A DNA stretch of 64,000 nt from Brevibacterium sp. S22. GTDB lineage: Bacteria; Actinomycetota; Actinomycetes; Actinomycetales; Brevibacteriaceae. The notes beneath the pieces are model-generated. The model saw nothing but the letters and a program-made list of their open reading frames with translations. It ran no database searches and was not told the origin of the DNA. Both the position numbers and the translations under genes were made by a program. The DNA lies in NCBI RefSeq assembly GCF_004745485.1, contig NZ_RHFG01000005.1, positions 62,001 through 126,000 on the forward strand, written 5' to 3'. Below are positions 6,438 to 12,658 of the stretch, piece after piece; the first letter of the stretch is position 1, and each line of letters opens with the position of its first letter.

Positions 6438-6758
6438 CTACAGATACATGCCTGAACTCGACTGTTCGGCCGGTTCGGAGATGGCATGGACGTCGCGCTC
6501 ACGCAGGAGCACATATGCCCGTCCCTCGAGCTCCACCTCGGCGAGTTCCTCGGGATCGTAGAGGACGGTGTCGCCGAGGTTGGCCTGCCGCACGTGCGGA
6601 CCCGCGGCGACGACCTTGCCCCACACAAGACGTCTGCCCATGCTGGCGGTGGCGGGAATGACGATGCCCGCCGAGGACTTGCGTTCCCCGGCCTCCTCGC
6701 TGGGTTCGAGCAGGATCCGGTCATGGAGCATCCGGATCGGAAGTGCGGCATCAGCCAC
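6438..6758 (-). CDS. GroES (Cpn10) family protein
   Basis: A 106-residue small beta-barrel protein of the co-chaperonin family. IRMLHDRILLEPSEE, AGIVIPATAS, GKVVAAGPH, GDTVLYDPEELAEVELEGR and LLRERDVHAI follow the Cpn10 plan. No groEL gene is adjacent, and actinobacteria carry a second divergent GroES-like protein next to DUF3618 genes, so this is probably that paralogue rather than the main co-chaperonin. The GTG at 6758 overlaps the DUF3618 stop by 8 bp, which suggests coupling. The internal ATG at 6731 is an alternative start. Confidence 0.82.
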   Translation of the reverse strand: MADAALPIRMLHDRILLEPSEEAGERKSSAGIVIPATASMGRRLVWGKVVAAGPHVRQANLGDTVLYDPEELAEVELEGRAYVLLRERDVHAISEPAEQSSSGMYL

Positions 6759-7035
6759 GCTTGCGACCGGAGAGTCCGACGACGAGGGCGGCCACACCGA
6801 GGACGGCACCGGCGCCGAGTGCGATGATCTCGGGCTTGGGGGAGCCGTCTTCCTCGACGACCTCGGACTTCGCCTTGTTGACGGCACGGGTCGCCAGCAC
6901 CTTCGGGTGGATGCGGCCGACGAGTTCGTCGATGTTCTCGGCAATGCGCTCTTCGCGCAGTCGGATCGACTCCGCGAGCTGTGTGGTCGTCGCCTGGTCG
7001 ACGGTCACATCTGAGGTGTAGACGTTGTCAGTCAT
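6751..7035 (-). CDS. DUF3618 family protein
   Basis: A 94-residue protein. An N-terminal amphipathic helical part (VDQATTTQLAESIRLREERIAENIDELVGRI is the family signature region, residues 12-42) precedes one C-terminal membrane helix (about 71-88) and a short basic tail SGRKRG. DUF3618 proteins are common in actinobacteria and their function is unknown. The ATG at 7035 has GGGAGG about 10 nt upstream. It is followed by the GroES-like gene in an overlapping two-gene unit. Confidence 0.85.
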   Translation of the reverse strand: MTDNVYTSDVTVDQATTTQLAESIRLREERIAENIDELVGRIHPKVLATRAVNKAKSEVVEEDGSPKPEIIALGAGAVLGVAALVVGLSGRKRG

Positions 7036-7131: not shown

Positions 7132-7854
7132 TCAGATATCGGCCGCGGTTCGACGGAATCTTACGATCTCGACGTTCGCGTCCGCGGGCATGGTCGGGTA
7201 GCGGGAGCGGAGATTGCCGATATACCGGTCGAGCCCACCCGGGCGGACGAGTTCGAGATCCTCGGGGCTGACTTCGTCGAGTCGTTTCACCATCACCGAG
7301 GTGACTTCCACGGGGAGGGCGCCATCCTCGGTGTCCTCGAAGTACGCCAGAGTCTGGCCCGCGCGGTGCGATTCGTTCCATCGCACGGTGAGCGTCTTCG
7401 TCCCGTCCGCAACCGCATCGAAGTAGCGGGCATGGAACCTCAGCAGTCGTGTCGGTGCTGATTCCGGATGCCGATAGGAAGAGGGGAGCAGCTCGGTGAT
7501 CGGGGCGATCGACCGCTCGCCTGTGGTGTCATCCGGAAGTGCGACGAGCACATCGGGATGGAGGTCGAGGATGACCTGACGGCAGCGTCCGCACGGAGCC
7601 AGCAGGCCGCGGTTCTGGTCGCCGACCGCGGCGATGGTGACCAGGGGACCGGCCTTCGCGGCTGCGGCGGCACCGATCACCACGAGTTCCGCGCACGGTC
7701 CGCCGGTGAAATGATCGACGTTGACGCCGGTGTGGATGGCCTCTGTGGTGTCCATCGCGGCTGCGGCGACGGTGTGATTCTCATCGGTTCCGAGCCCGCG
7801 TACGAGGTGCTCGGCAGCGGCGATCACGCGCAGTTCGGAGTCGAAGAGGTCCAT
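7132..7854 (-). CDS. Blasticidin-S-deaminase-like domain fused to a YqfB-type ASCH domain
   Basis: A 240-residue two-domain protein. Residues 1-128 match cytidine/blasticidin-S deaminases: GVNVDHFTGGPCAELVV (Cys54, Glu56) and PCGRCRQVILDLHP (Cys88, Cys91) give the zinc ligands and catalytic glutamate at the same numbering as fungal blasticidin-S deaminase. Residues about 137-236 form an ASCH domain resembling E. coli YqfB, an N4-acetylcytidine amidohydrolase: FHARYFDAVADGTKTLTVRW includes Lys153 and Thr156 at the YqfB catalytic Lys/Thr positions. The order suggests deacylation of N4-acylcytidine followed by deamination to uridine. That coupled role is inference. The gene seems monocistronic; the ATG at 7854 precedes a 6-bp gap to the next gene upstream. 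Confidence 0.88.
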   Translation of the reverse strand: MDLFDSELRVIAAAEHLVRGLGTDENHTVAAAAMDTTEAIHTGVNVDHFTGGPCAELVVIGAAAAAKAGPLVTIAAVGDQNRGLLAPCGRCRQVILDLHPDVLVALPDDTTGERSIAPITELLPSSYRHPESAPTRLLRFHARYFDAVADGTKTLTVRWNESHRAGQTLAYFEDTEDGALPVEVTSVMVKRLDEVSPEDLELVRPGGLDRYIGNLRSRYPTMPADANVEIVRFRRTAADI

Positions 7855-7860
7855 ATGGAC

Positions 7861-9513
7861 TCAGTCCTGTTTTCCGCGGCGTCCCATGAGGTAGATGATA
7901 AACCCGACCGCGGCCATACCGGAGGCGGCGAGGACGAAGATGGGCCACGAGCTGACGATCGTGGAGATGATGGATTCGCCGAATGAGGTCGCCGGATTCT
8001 GGTTGGCACGCGGGGACGGCTGATCGCCACCCGTGATGAGATCCGTATCGTCTTTGGGCGTCTGTTCGTCGGGGTTGCGGGGCACCGGGTCCGAATAGTC
8101 GGGGTGTTCGCTGTCGTCGTCATCTCCAGGCAGCCACTCGTCACCCGCGTTGCCGGGGATGGTTTCGCGTTCATCGGGAGTGCCGTTGCCGTTCGCCGGG
8201 TCCGGCGTGGTGCCGTCGGCGTCGGAGGCGCCGACCGACGACCCGGAGCCGTCTGTGTCCGCATCCTTCTCTTCGTCCTCGTCGGAACCAGAGTCGGAGC
8301 CTGAGGTGTCTGAATCGCTGCTGCGTGAGCCGTCGGAATCGCTGTCGCGTGAGCCGTCGGAGGCTGAACCGGTGTCGGTGTCGGATTCCTTGCCGTCGGA
8401 GTCCTTGTCGCCCGACGTATTCGCACGGTCCTTCGCCCCCGAATCCGAGGAGGTTCCACCATCGGTCGAGCTGGCGCTGTCGTCAGAGGTGTCGCTGTCC
8501 GAAGTCGATCCGTCCTCGTCGGCCCCGCGGTCGTCGGCAGAGCCGTTGTCGGAGGTGATCCCGTCCCTGCTGGCGGTCTTGTCGCCGCGCGTGTTGCTTT
8601 CGGAGCCGTCAGCCGTAGACGACTCATCGTCGGATGAGGAAGAGCCGTTGTCGGCCGTTCCGTTGTCGGCGCCGGTTTCTGAGTCGTCTGAAGTGGAACC
8701 GTCTTTATCAGCGGATGCTTCGGCCCCTTCATCGTGTTCCTTGTACTGCTCACCGCTGGCAGTGATCTTCTTGCCGTCGGCTTTGAACTTCCAGTCCGGT
8801 TTGGGGCCGTTGGTCCCGAATCCCTTGAATTCCATGGCCTCGTCTTCGCCCGCGGCTCTGATCGTTCCGTCGGGGCCGAACTCGAATCGTGTGGGTGCGT
8901 CGGCTTGCGTGGTCGCATCAGACACGGATTGACCACTGTCGTCAGTGTCCGATTCGCTGCTGGCCGAGTCTCCGGTGCCGTCGGACGACGCGCTCTGGGC
9001 TGGAACTCGGACCATTCCTTGATCGGTCGGTCCGTCGAACTTCACACCGACCCAGCTCTTGGGCAGGCTTCCGGGTTCGCCATTGTTCGGCTTGACTGAG
9101 AGATGTTGGGTCTCGGAGTCCCATGTCGCTTCGAGCTCACCGTCAATCTCACAAGGCTGATCTATGCGGAGAAGAGACGATCCTTGGTCCGAATCCGCAC
9201 AGGCTCCGTCTTCATCCGGATCAGAATCGGAGTCGTCGTCCTTACCGTCGACCTCGGTCACGCCGTTGTCGGCGGAGTTCGAATCAGCCTCGGTGCCGTC
9301 CTCGCTGTCTGCCGTCGGATCAGCGCCGTCGCCTGAAGTGGAATCAGCCCCGGCAGACGTCTCGGCGTCGGCGTTCGAACCGGCTTCGGCCGTGGGAGGG
9401 GGACTCGGCTGGGCGAGTGCAGGAGTGAGCGTTGCCGAGATGGGAAGTGCCGCCAGGGCAAGCGCAGCGCCGATTGCGGCGGCTCTGCGGCTGAACCGGT
9501 GTGAGACTGGCAC
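7861..9513 (-). CDS. Secreted Ser/Asp-rich surface protein with C-terminal membrane anchor
   Basis: A 550-residue protein of unknown function. A signal peptide (basic RFSRRAAA, hydrophobic core, ALAQP cleavage region at about 30-36) leads into an acidic Ser/Asp/Gly/Thr-rich chain. A small ordered patch has two cysteines (CADSDQ, QPCEIDGELEATW). The middle third is almost pure Ser-Asp-Gly low complexity. A transmembrane helix (about 521-541) and basic tail RRGKQD close the chain; no LPXTG motif is present. The GTG at 9513 follows AAGGA by 7 nt; a TTG at 9546 is less likely. It resembles SD-repeat stalk proteins that project a domain from the membrane. Confidence 0.75.
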   Translation of the reverse strand: MPVSHRFSRRAAAIGAALALAALPISATLTPALAQPSPPPTAEAGSNADAETSAGADSTSGDGADPTADSEDGTEADSNSADNGVTEVDGKDDDSDSDPDEDGACADSDQGSSLLRIDQPCEIDGELEATWDSETQHLSVKPNNGEPGSLPKSWVGVKFDGPTDQGMVRVPAQSASSDGTGDSASSESDTDDSGQSVSDATTQADAPTRFEFGPDGTIRAAGEDEAMEFKGFGTNGPKPDWKFKADGKKITASGEQYKEHDEGAEASADKDGSTSDDSETGADNGTADNGSSSSDDESSTADGSESNTRGDKTASRDGITSDNGSADDRGADEDGSTSDSDTSDDSASSTDGGTSSDSGAKDRANTSGDKDSDGKESDTDTGSASDGSRDSDSDGSRSSDSDTSGSDSGSDEDEEKDADTDGSGSSVGASDADGTTPDPANGNGTPDERETIPGNAGDEWLPGDDDDSEHPDYSDPVPRNPDEQTPKDDTDLITGGDQPSPRANQNPATSFGESIISTIVSSWPIFVLAASGMAAVGFIIYLMGRRGKQD

Positions 9514-9703
9514 TACGTTCCTTCGCGGTGGGGATTCCGACTTCAATGGGTCAAGGGGACATGACGTTCAGACACATCGGTCCCCATCTTAATGTCTCGA
9601 CCAGATGTGTTAAAGCCGCGGGCGTGTTCCGCCGTGGCGTGGGACCCATGAACGGTCGGCGGTCGGCGGCCGACATTCCGCTGCGGGAGACCCCTGCACA
9701 GGG

Positions 9704-11389
9704 CTAACGGTCCTGCTTGTCGGACCTCTTCGGATACGCCCGAACGGTCGAGTCGTCACCGAGCACGAGTGCCTCATTGCCGTCGTCGACGATCGCCAGC
9801 AGATCGGTTTCGGTCTTGAACGCCTGTTTGCCGGCGAGCAGACACGAAGTGTTCGTGTCCATCGTGCAGGGGACGATGGTTCCGCGCGGCTCGGAGAGGT
9901 GGATATCGCGACTGGAGACGTCCATGAGCAGCAGACCCGACTCCAGATCGAAGAGATACGGGCCGATATAGGCACGTTCTCCACCCTGTCCGCGCACCCA
10001 GGACTTCTCACCGACGATGTCGGTCGTCGTCACGGTCGACAGGATCGAACCGTCTTCGAGCGAATGGACGACGAGCTGGATCCTGTGGCCCGAGTTCGTC
10101 GACGCGCCTTGCTCGCCCCACAGCGTTATCGCCTTGCCATGGCCGGCCGAGATCCAGTCGATGATCTTCAGTTCGTCGCCGGGTGCCTCGAGTTTGATGC
10201 TGCGCTCGTCGCCGGTCTTGATGTTCTTCGCCTTGACCGGACCGTTCCAGTCCGAACTGAAGAGCTCATCGTCATCGATGGCCATCGGTGTCGAGCCGGC
10301 CTGCGGGGTGGGCACGTTCTCCAGTCCCTCGGCGCCGAAGGTCGAGAGCTTGTTGCCCGTCTTGACGAGCACGCTCTTGCCGGCCGAGGTGATGCGCGCC
10401 TTCTCCGGAAGCTGATAGGTCTTGGGCTTCGAATCTCCGTCGAAGAGCGCCTCGGCGGTGTCGCCAGACTGCCACAGCAGGGCCGGACGACCATCGATGA
10501 CGGTGTCGACGGCGAAGGTCGGGGACTCACTGATCTTGGCCTTGTACCGAGACTTGCCGGTGTCCGAGTCGAGGACCTCGAGGCGGTTGTCGTTGACGAG
10601 GAGGACGCCGCGATCCGAGGCCGTCACCGAGGCGTGCTTGGGCACTTCGGCTTCCCATGCGGGGGAGTTGTCGTAGCTGGGCACAACGTCTTTGGTCTTG
10701 TCGACGGAGAGTTCGGATGCGGGGTTGATCTGCTGTTCCGAACCGATCGTCTGCGGGGTATCGGGGGAGTCGATGGGAACGATGTTGGGAACAACGAATG
10801 CGCCGACCATGAGGATCGCCAGACCGATGAGCACAAGCCCTGGAATGGTGATCTTCTTCAGTCGCTGCGGGCGGTTGCGAGCCGACCGTTTCCGCACCGG
10901 CGTCTTCTTCACCGCCGGCGCGGCTGGCGCGGCCGGTCCTGAGAATGGGGTGCCCATCGGGTAGCTGTCGCCGTTCGAGTTCGAGGGATCATCCAGCGTG
11001 GCCGAGCCGTCCTGCTCATTCGTAGGCTGCCCGTTCGAATCCTGCTCGACCTGCCCGGCAGATCCGGTCTCCTCATTCGAAGCGTGACCCGCATGACCGG
11101 CCGCCTCATCCGAACCATTCGCAGCCGCAGCGGTGGCCGAATCGTCCGCGGCCGCCTCGGCGCCGGCGTCCTGTGTGGGAACGGCTCCGACCCTGCCGTC
11201 CTCGTCGATGCCGATCTCGGTCTTCTTCGTGCCGTCGTCGATCGTCACAGTCAGGGGAGTCGCGGTCTCCTTGGCGTAGTCGCCGAGGTAAGAGATGGCC
11301 TGCCCGGTGTCCGAATAGCGACTCGTCGCCCCGTTGAGGGTGGTGTAGGTGAACCCGTCATCGGAGACGGAGATCAACGCACGAGGCAT
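9704..11389 (-). CDS. Single-pass membrane protein with large outer domain, unknown function
   Basis: A 561-residue protein. Residues 1-75 form a compact cytoplasmic domain (ISVSDDGFTYTTLNG). An Ala/Asp/Glu-rich linker with a basic end (KKTPVRKRSARNRPQRLKK) runs to about 183, followed by one membrane helix (about 184-205). The outer part (206-561) shows repeated beta-strand units such as RLEVLDSDTGKSRY and YLFDLESGLLLMD, reminiscent of a PQQ/WD-type propeller. The topology is that of a sensor or envelope protein. ATG at 11389. It sits between the SD-rich protein and tRNA-His, on the same strand as the former. Confidence 0.7.
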   Translation of the reverse strand: MPRALISVSDDGFTYTTLNGATSRYSDTGQAISYLGDYAKETATPLTVTIDDGTKKTEIGIDEDGRVGAVPTQDAGAEAAADDSATAAAANGSDEAAGHAGHASNEETGSAGQVEQDSNGQPTNEQDGSATLDDPSNSNGDSYPMGTPFSGPAAPAAPAVKKTPVRKRSARNRPQRLKKITIPGLVLIGLAILMVGAFVVPNIVPIDSPDTPQTIGSEQQINPASELSVDKTKDVVPSYDNSPAWEAEVPKHASVTASDRGVLLVNDNRLEVLDSDTGKSRYKAKISESPTFAVDTVIDGRPALLWQSGDTAEALFDGDSKPKTYQLPEKARITSAGKSVLVKTGNKLSTFGAEGLENVPTPQAGSTPMAIDDDELFSSDWNGPVKAKNIKTGDERSIKLEAPGDELKIIDWISAGHGKAITLWGEQGASTNSGHRIQLVVHSLEDGSILSTVTTTDIVGEKSWVRGQGGERAYIGPYLFDLESGLLLMDVSSRDIHLSEPRGTIVPCTMDTNTSCLLAGKQAFKTETDLLAIVDDGNEALVLGDDSTVRAYPKRSDKQDR

Positions 11390-11812: not shown

Positions 11813-12658
11813 ATGACCATTGATTGTTCCCTGGCGGTCGTCGGCAGCATCAACGCCGACATCACTGCCACCGCCGGCCGACTGCCGGGCCCCGGCGAGA
11901 CCGTGGGAGGTGGCCGGCTCAGCCGTTCGCCCGGCGGAAAGGGCGCGAATCAGGCTTCCGCTGCCGCCCGCCTCGGTGCGCGCACCCGCATGATCGGTGC
12001 GGTCGGTCGCGACTCCGACGGCCAGGCGATGTGCGATGCCCTCCGCGCCGCCGGGGTCCACATCGATGATGTCGCCGAGGCGACCGCCGAGACCGGGACC
12101 GCGCTCATCATGGTCGACGCGGCGGGGGAGAATCAGATCGCCGTGTGCGAAGGTGCGAATGCCGAGGTCAGCCTCGCCGGAATCGAGTTCGGCGCCGACG
12201 AGGTCGTGCTCACTCAGCTCGAGATCTCCCTCGGCCTCATTGCCGAGCTTGCCGACCGCGTGCCCGGGTTCCTCGCCGTCAACGCGGCTCCCGCCCTTCC
12301 TCTGCCCGCCGAGGTGGTCGACCGCGCCGATCTCATCATCGTCAACGAATACGAATACTCCCAGCTGCCGCAGCTGAAGACCGCGAAGCTCGTGGCCGTC
12401 ACGTATGGGGCCAAGGGGTCGGCGCTGCTGGGCAACGGTGAGCAGATCGCCTTCGCCGAGGCGGTGCGAACGAAGCCCGTGAGCACCGTCGGTGCCGGAG
12501 ACGCCTACTGCGCGGCCCTGACCATCGGCCTGACCAGCGGACTCGAGCCGGAACACGCACTGCGCGCGGCCAACGCCGTCGGTGCGGCGGCCGTGGAGGT
12601 CGTCTCGGCCCAACCGGAGTTCGATCCGTTGGAGACCTATCTGTCGGCTCCGGACTGA
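11813..12658 (+). CDS. PfkB family carbohydrate kinase, ribokinase type
   Basis: A 281-residue sugar kinase that would phosphorylate ribose or a related sugar with ATP. The two PfkB signatures are present: PGGKGANQASAAARLGA near residues 40-56 and VSTVGAGDAYCAALTIG near 222-238 with the catalytic GAGD. N-terminal VVGSINADI is typical of ribokinase. It is somewhat shorter than RbsK (about 300). GATAAT lies 6 nt before the ATG at 11813, suggesting a leaderless transcript. The DapA-like gene follows after 55 bp, so the pair may handle one sugar or sugar acid; the actual substrate is unknown. Confidence 0.87.
   Translation: MTIDCSLAVVGSINADITATAGRLPGPGETVGGGRLSRSPGGKGANQASAAARLGARTRMIGAVGRDSDGQAMCDALRAAGVHIDDVAEATAETGTALIMVDAAGENQIAVCEGANAEVSLAGIEFGADEVVLTQLEISLGLIAELADRVPGFLAVNAAPALPLPAEVVDRADLIIVNEYEYSQLPQLKTAKLVAVTYGAKGSALLGNGEQIAFAEAVRTKPVSTVGAGDAYCAALTIGLTSGLEPEHALRAANAVGAAAVEVVSAQPEFDPLETYLSAPD

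Follow-up and report, generated by a model that had tools for sequence, protein, structure and literature searches.

A blasticidin-S-deaminase-like domain fused to an ASCH domain in Brevibacterium: a candidate detoxification enzyme for cytosine nucleosides

The fusion gene

A 64,000-nucleotide stretch of the 4.5-Mb genome of Brevibacterium sp. S22 (contig NZ_RHFG01000005.1, positions 62,001 to 126,000; here, the window) contains a gene whose product joins a zinc deaminase domain resembling blasticidin-S deaminase (BSD) to an ASCH domain (Table 1). Both halves match their Pfam families above the curated cut-offs, namely dCMP_cyt_deam_1 at residues 14 to 101 (28.8 bits versus a cut-off of 25) and ASCH at residues 138 to 201 (34.7 bits versus 21.2). 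An earlier, sequence-only reading of this DNA had placed the open reading frame (ORF) correctly, and the ORF is real, but its minus-strand orientation had been missed.

Table 1. Features of the fusion gene and of its conserved locus, in window coordinates
Feature	Position	Strand	Basis
Fusion gene, BSD-like deaminase domain plus ASCH domain, 240 amino acids	7132..7854	minus	Found intact at this locus in 23 of the 57 Brevibacterium genomes, counting the host
BSD-like zinc deaminase domain, residues 1-128 (C54, E56, C88, C91)	7471..7854	minus	PDB 1wn5, E value 5.6e-36; BSD clade in tree
Interdomain linker, residues about 129-134, directly after the LLPxxY motif	7453..7470	minus	Alignments
ASCH domain, residues 135-240 (K153, T156, R158, E161, E173, Y219)	7135..7452	minus	Pfam ASCH; profile match to YqfB; column counts
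Neighboring gene outside the enzyme, marker of the conserved locus: Ser/Asp-rich protein whose start resembles a signal peptide and which has a hydrophobic stretch at its C terminus	7861..9546	minus	Matched as flank in 33 of the 57 genomes; no Pfam match
Neighboring gene outside the enzyme, marker of the conserved locus: DUF3618 protein	6751..7035	minus	Flank match

The deaminase half

The best solved relative of the protein is the BSD of Aspergillus terreus (PDB 1wn5), found by phmmer over residues 3 to 127; against solved structures, the N-terminal half scores 127.6 bits with BSD and at most 42.3 bits with cytidine deaminases (CDAs). The alignment to BSD is ungapped, and the zinc ligands Cys54, Cys88, and Cys91 and the catalytic Glu56, all kept in the protein, bear the same numbers in both enzymes, just as the sequence-only reading had stated. 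The stretch that it quoted, HFTGGPCAELVV, is likewise present in this half. Also shared with BSD are the HFTGGPCAE stretch, the loss of the ribose-contacting Glu of CDAs, and the LLPxxY end. However, the BSD chain stands alone with 130 amino acids and ends four residues past LLPxxY, whereas in the fusion the ASCH domain follows shortly. A bacterial BSD is also reported from Streptomyces lividans, to judge by the title of a cited work.

Among the 102 deaminase domains placed in a tree, 78 rows (the fusions, 25 relatives that stand alone, and BSD) are separated from the other 24 by a split with 100/100 support, which bears out the BSD-like character proposed for this half, while the finer relations within the BSD side often lack support. 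The 24 rows across the split, here called canonical, come from the own genome, a phylum sample, and, in one case, a class sample. Six NCBIfam equivalog models for cytidine deaminase match the fusion protein, all below their cut-offs; thus, by NCBI's own standard the protein is not named Cdd.

Residue columns were counted over 52 fusion rows, after removal of a duplicate of the query (L005) and two decayed copies (L017 and L029); L042 and BSD were excluded from the column groups. With tetrameric cytidine deaminase (Cdd) the fusion shares the deaminase domain and the zinc and Glu motifs CAE and PCGRCRQ, but the NXEN ribose motif of Cdd is replaced by NxxHF. At position 47, where 23 of the 24 canonical rows have the NXE-motif Glu and the remaining one Asp, none of the 52 fusions has Glu; they carry His, Tyr, Phe, Asp, Cys, or Asn (the last in L016), and BSD has Tyr. 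Position 48 is His in every fusion and Asn in every canonical row, and Tyr127 of the fusion is replaced by Phe in 24/24 canonical rows. In a docked cytidine deaminase, the NXE-motif Glu touches the ribose (PMC9897663). Because four fusions, the present one among them, have Asp at position 47, some sugar contact there may persist. By this placement, residues 1 to 128 belong to the BSD clade, and deamination of blasticidin S is predicted.

The zinc site varies among the fusions. The third ligand, Cys91, is Asp (PCGRDRQ) in seven of the 43 fusions that are not of the second type described below (L036, L067, L069, L089, L136, L140, and L143), and the same replacement occurs in 7 of 24 stand-alone BSD-like rows, so that an unusual Cys-Cys-Asp site is common to both groups. 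One of these 43 fusions (L137) has CAK for CAE, with Lys in place of the catalytic Glu, which may be a real loss or a sequence error.

The ASCH half

A profile built from 13 ASCH halves retrieved both PDB sequences of YqfB, the Escherichia coli N4-acetylcytidine (ac4C) amidohydrolase (PDB 1te7 and 9kyf to 9kyh), at E values of 5.6e-9 and 6.6e-9 and nothing else below 0.5; a single-sequence search with the protein itself reached YqfB at only E = 0.28 to 0.31. As the sequence-only reading had proposed, the DGTKTLTVR motif aligns with the catalytic Lys and Thr of YqfB (K153 with K21 and T156 with T24). The likeness extends to R158 (R26) and to Y219 (Y89), the latter a substrate contact in YqfB. 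YqfB itself is a stand-alone protein of 103 amino acids, whereas the ASCH domain of the fusion is joined to the deaminase.

Across the 52 fusions, Lys153 and Arg158 are invariant, position 156 is Thr in 50 and Ser in 2, and Tyr219 is kept in 51; moreover, position 161 is always Asp or Glu and position 173 always Glu. The YqfB variants K21A, T24A, and R26A are inactive, while T24S has about wild-type activity (PMC6972931), which the natural Ser in two fusions matches.

Structure prediction gave weak fold matches. AlphaFold2 gave an unusable model of the full-length protein with five sequences (predicted local distance difference test score [pLDDT] of 48.3). For the ASCH half alone (pLDDT of 66.8), ASCH-family chains lead the weak matches; the top Foldseek match is YqfB (9kyf_B), at an E value of 0.054, and VIA-align superposed the model on YqfB with a Z score of 4.1 and a root mean square deviation of 4.0 over 78 aligned residues.

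Two further relatives depart from the usual architecture. In L151 (2084-2806, minus strand), a fusion-like protein has degenerate deaminase motifs, and Pfam finds ASCH alone; its ASCH domain looks intact and carries KKQTIR. In L147 (2084-3007), an ASCH relative stands at the start of a 307-amino-acid ORF whose second half looks, by eye, like an S-adenosylmethionine-dependent methyltransferase.

Distribution, selection, and decay

Within the genus, the fusion gene occupies one slot, between the Ser/Asp-rich exported-looking protein and DUF3618, where it is intact in 23 and decayed in 10 of 57 Brevibacterium genomes. One genome (G006) has the fusion without the usual neighbors within 1.5 kb. In 23 others, two of which have a divergent second type only, neither a copy nor a remnant was found, although remnants below the search threshold may be concealed there and a few assemblies are incomplete. 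Single frameshifts (e.g., in L017) may be sequencing errors, but the large losses (L029, L035, and L077 to L080) are unlikely to be so. The divergent second type (HFLGGPCGE and KRQTIR or KTQTIR; L071 to L076 and others; here, type 2) exists in some Brevibacterium genomes, twice each in G025 and G028.

Both halves are under purifying selection and neither drifts freely, so the fusion is not a product of chance. The median pairwise ratios of nonsynonymous to synonymous substitution rates (dN/dS), taken in two clades (11 and 9 orthologues), come to 0.18 and 0.15 in the deaminase half, to 0.29 and 0.20 in the ASCH half, and to 0.07 and 0.22 in the neighboring DUF3618 gene.

The domain pair, which the sequence-only reading had suggested seeking in other genomes, is also present in further actinobacterial families and on plasmids. 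Counts from the class and order samples are lower bounds, with up to seven candidates scored per genome. Among 394 genomes of the class sample, at least 33 match, comprising at least 5 with fusions (own included), at least 26 with the deaminase half only, and at least 2 with the ASCH half only. Of 396 genomes of the order sample, at least 47 match, and near-full-length fusions exist in at least 16, representing seven families besides the own. Of 72,556 plasmid records, 28 match, six of them over at least 80% of the query (four from Streptomyces and one each from Curtobacterium and Rhodococcus), and all six of these copies are annotated as "ASCH domain-containing protein". The adjoining genes differ around the five near-full-length plasmid copies inspected and around a split Paenarthrobacter copy; farther off, general annotations such as MarR, STAS, and MFS are shared by some of the six neighborhoods, a likeness of product names. 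The split copy lies on a conjugative plasmid (L068:5950-8167), with an IS256 transposase lying between its deaminase and ASCH parts.

Judged by eye, the main groups of the ASCH tree resemble those of the deaminase tree. One group of the deaminase tree has deaminase-only proteins nested among the fusions, and in the ASCH tree the domains that lack this deaminase partner lie dispersed between fusions, indicating that the halves parted or joined more than once. In the open-access literature, searched by title and start of abstract and with earlier ASCH and deaminase-fold surveys outside its coverage, no description of this fusion was found.

The other genes at the Brevibacterium locus (those for the Ser/Asp-rich protein, DUF3618, and Cpn10) are uninformative as to function. 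Two minus-strand ORFs of 561 amino acids each (7861-9546 and 9704-11389) have no Pfam match; the former has an acidic low-complexity stretch and the latter an internal hydrophobic helix. An operon with nucleoside metabolism was considered and rejected, since a PfkB-type kinase gene (11816-12658) lies about 4 kb away on the opposite strand, with other genes between. A second ASCH protein of the host genome (173 amino acids; L083:1390-1911), encoded outside the window about 14 kb from the fusion, has GTKTGTASALW instead of KxxTxR and is apparently of another ASCH kind.

Proposed function and alternatives

We tentatively propose, as a reading that could well prove wrong, that the fusion is an accessory detoxification enzyme acting in two steps at C4 of the cytosine in hexosyl-cytosine nucleosides of the blasticidin and amicetin groups. 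Amicetin-group compounds carry a p-aminobenzoate acyl arm on the cytosine N4, and amicetin and blasticidin S have a ribosomal cytosine pocket in common (PMC12856912). In the streptcytosine series, amosamine and/or p-aminobenzoate parts were concluded to be necessary for activity on Mycobacterium smegmatis (PMC4278220). Substrates of YqfB include cytidines with N4-benzoyl or para-substituted benzoyl groups (PMC6972931) as well as acylated 5-fluorocytidines (PMC10688628), and the bond cleaved in the benzoyl cytidines is of the same type as that of the amicetin p-aminobenzoyl arm. The two-step proposal thus rests on both chemistries meeting at the cytosine C4 nitrogen, together with the amicetin arm, the shared pocket, and the YqfB substrates. 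In addition, a gene that is conditional, often lost, sometimes plasmid-borne, and without constant partners outside the genus behaves like a detoxification gene.

The data themselves establish which domains are present, which residues are conserved, that selection acts on both halves, and how the fusion is distributed; from these we infer the catalytic activities of the two halves, their substrates, the order of the steps, and the role in resistance as follows. In the ASCH half, Thr156, activated by Lys153 and with the oxyanion held by Arg158, would remove the N4-acyl arm. The BSD-like half would act next, with zinc bound by Cys54, Cys88, and Cys91 and Glu56 as the proton shuttle, and would convert the freed cytosine to uracil; the uracil product should abolish ribosome binding. 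Inactivation of cytosine nucleoside antibiotics, the better of the two options offered by the sequence-only reading, fits the evidence best, but its amidohydrolase part has been weakened.

Several findings weigh against the proposal, the most direct being, by alignment, Val203. It occupies the place of Glu74, the general acid and third catalytic residue of YqfB, while Asp199 and Trp159 align with His70 and Asp27, both invariant in the YqfB branch. The sequence-only reading was right about the equivalents of Lys21 and Thr24 in calling this half a YqfB-type amidohydrolase, and those of Arg26 and Tyr89 are kept as well, but it left unmentioned that Glu74 and His70 are not conserved in the clade. 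In YqfB, the E74A substitution lowers the turnover number (kcat) about 1,000-fold on ac4C and 100-fold on N4-acetylcytosine (PMC6972931). The column equivalent to Glu74 is acidic (Asp or Glu) in 25 of the 52 fusions, including the aligned Curtobacterium (NZ_CP126274.1), Rhodococcus, and Streptomyces-plasmid fusions and eight of nine type-2 fusions, and nonacidic in 27, the present one among them. Hence, of the Lys/Thr/Glu arrangement in the ASCH pocket that the earlier reading had singled out for checking, Lys and Thr are kept and Glu is missing by sequence. The nucleophile-base-oxyanion core is retained, and the acid is not, in the Brevibacterium type-1 clade, which leaves the amidohydrolase half plausible but not secured; the conserved acid at position 161 or 173 could replace Glu74. 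Further objections are that (i) at least 26 of the at least 33 matching class-sample genomes have the deaminase half only, which suggests that deamination is independent of ASCH (at least one of these relatives groups with the canonical deaminases in the tree); (ii) some tetrameric CDAs alone release amide from N4-acylcytidines (PMC9897663), so that a separate deacylase would be unnecessary; and (iii) no nucleoside-antibiotic cluster was seen by annotation in the inspected plasmid neighborhoods, and the MFS transporters about 2 kb (L070) and 5 kb (L067) from plasmid fusions could be anything.

Owing to the replacement of Glu74, it is a serious though doubtful possibility, and the main rival to the proposal, that the BSD-like half is the sole catalyst in this clade and that the ASCH half, without hydrolyzing anything, binds the modified cytosine or acyl arm, gates the active site, or stabilizes the oligomer. 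The substitution of His70 points the same way, as does the faster evolution of the ASCH half than of the deaminase half. In a docked tetrameric CDA, the active site is lined by the C-terminal segment of a neighboring subunit (Phe126(B) and Leu131(B); PMC9897663), and the ASCH half is joined at the end corresponding to that segment; binding of nucleic acids or modified bases is also common among ASCH/PUA domains (PMC7641849). On the other hand, the invariance of K153, T/S156, R158, E/D161, and E173, with a nucleophile-like Thr/Ser exchange, argues against this reading. In addition, KxxTxR occurs in four relatives with an ASCH domain unjoined to this deaminase (L144 to L147), and a motif of this type is kept in L151 despite its degenerate deaminase half, which suggests a separate use for ASCH.

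Pyrimidine salvage, in which ASCH would free cytidine from the ac4C of RNA turnover and the deaminase half would make uridine, was the other option of the sequence-only reading. It draws on the view that YqfB and its homologues act primarily on ac4C (PMC10688628), and the two halves would make up a pathway. The PfkB-type kinase gene (11816-12658) some 4 kb off and the Asp in place of the ribose Glu in four fusions would also suit it. However, the NXE Glu of CDAs is absent from all 52 fusions, and a separate NXEN-type cytidine deaminase exists among the five PF00383 matches in the host genome. The families TmcA_N and HIGH_NTase1, representing TmcA and TmcAL, to our knowledge the known bacterial ac4C writers, matched none of the 57 Brevibacterium genomes, while the positive controls E. 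coli and Bacillus subtilis, respectively, were matched. With no writer found, a separate deaminase at hand, and a dispensable gene of which 33 of the 57 genomes yielded only a decayed copy or none, salvage of RNA-derived ac4C is disfavored, and we consider it unlikely; these findings speak instead for optional detoxification.

A one-step displacement of the N4-acyl amide by the BSD-like half, with ASCH serving another cytosine derivative or regulating, has a precedent in prokaryotic tetrameric CDAs that turn N4-acylcytidines into uridine and amide. Those enzymes carry NXEN(S) (PMC9897663), which the fusions lack, and we regard this route as quite improbable. Least probable of all, and very unlikely, is a protein that edits or reads modified cytosine in RNA or DNA, with ASCH as nucleic-acid binder and the deaminase as editor: ASCH/PUA domains are often nucleic-acid binders (PMC7641849), and ZmASCH is mentioned as a ribonuclease (PMC6972931), but the deaminase half belongs with the enzymes that act on free nucleosides (tetrameric CDA/BSD). 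Moreover, no relatives were found in viral contigs by alignment search or in a phage collection, and PADLOC returned no match for the two proteins submitted. A weak PHROG match covers the ASCH stretch of the protein (E value of 0.0022).

Implications

To return to two-step detoxification, its extension to the whole family is doubtful: the fusions may form a widespread unnamed actinobacterial family whose single chain couples removal of the acyl arm from N4-acylated cytosine antibiotics, by an ASCH deacylase whose acid site has been rebuilt, to deamination of the exposed cytosine by the BSD-like half, giving resistance to both the amicetin and the blasticidin groups. If active as proposed, the enzyme would attack the N4-acyl arm, to which the bacterial selectivity of the amicetin class is attributed (PMC12856912), and one protein would handle blasticidin-type drugs too. 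Blasticidin-amicetin chimeras with such arms have been made as selective ribosome inhibitors (PMC12856912), and for these the family, if the proposal is true, would be a ready-made environmental source of resistance. It would also provide a testable function for an uncharacterized ASCH subfamily. If the deaminase alone works, the protein would instead be a BSD relative with a constrained but unexplained ASCH appendage.
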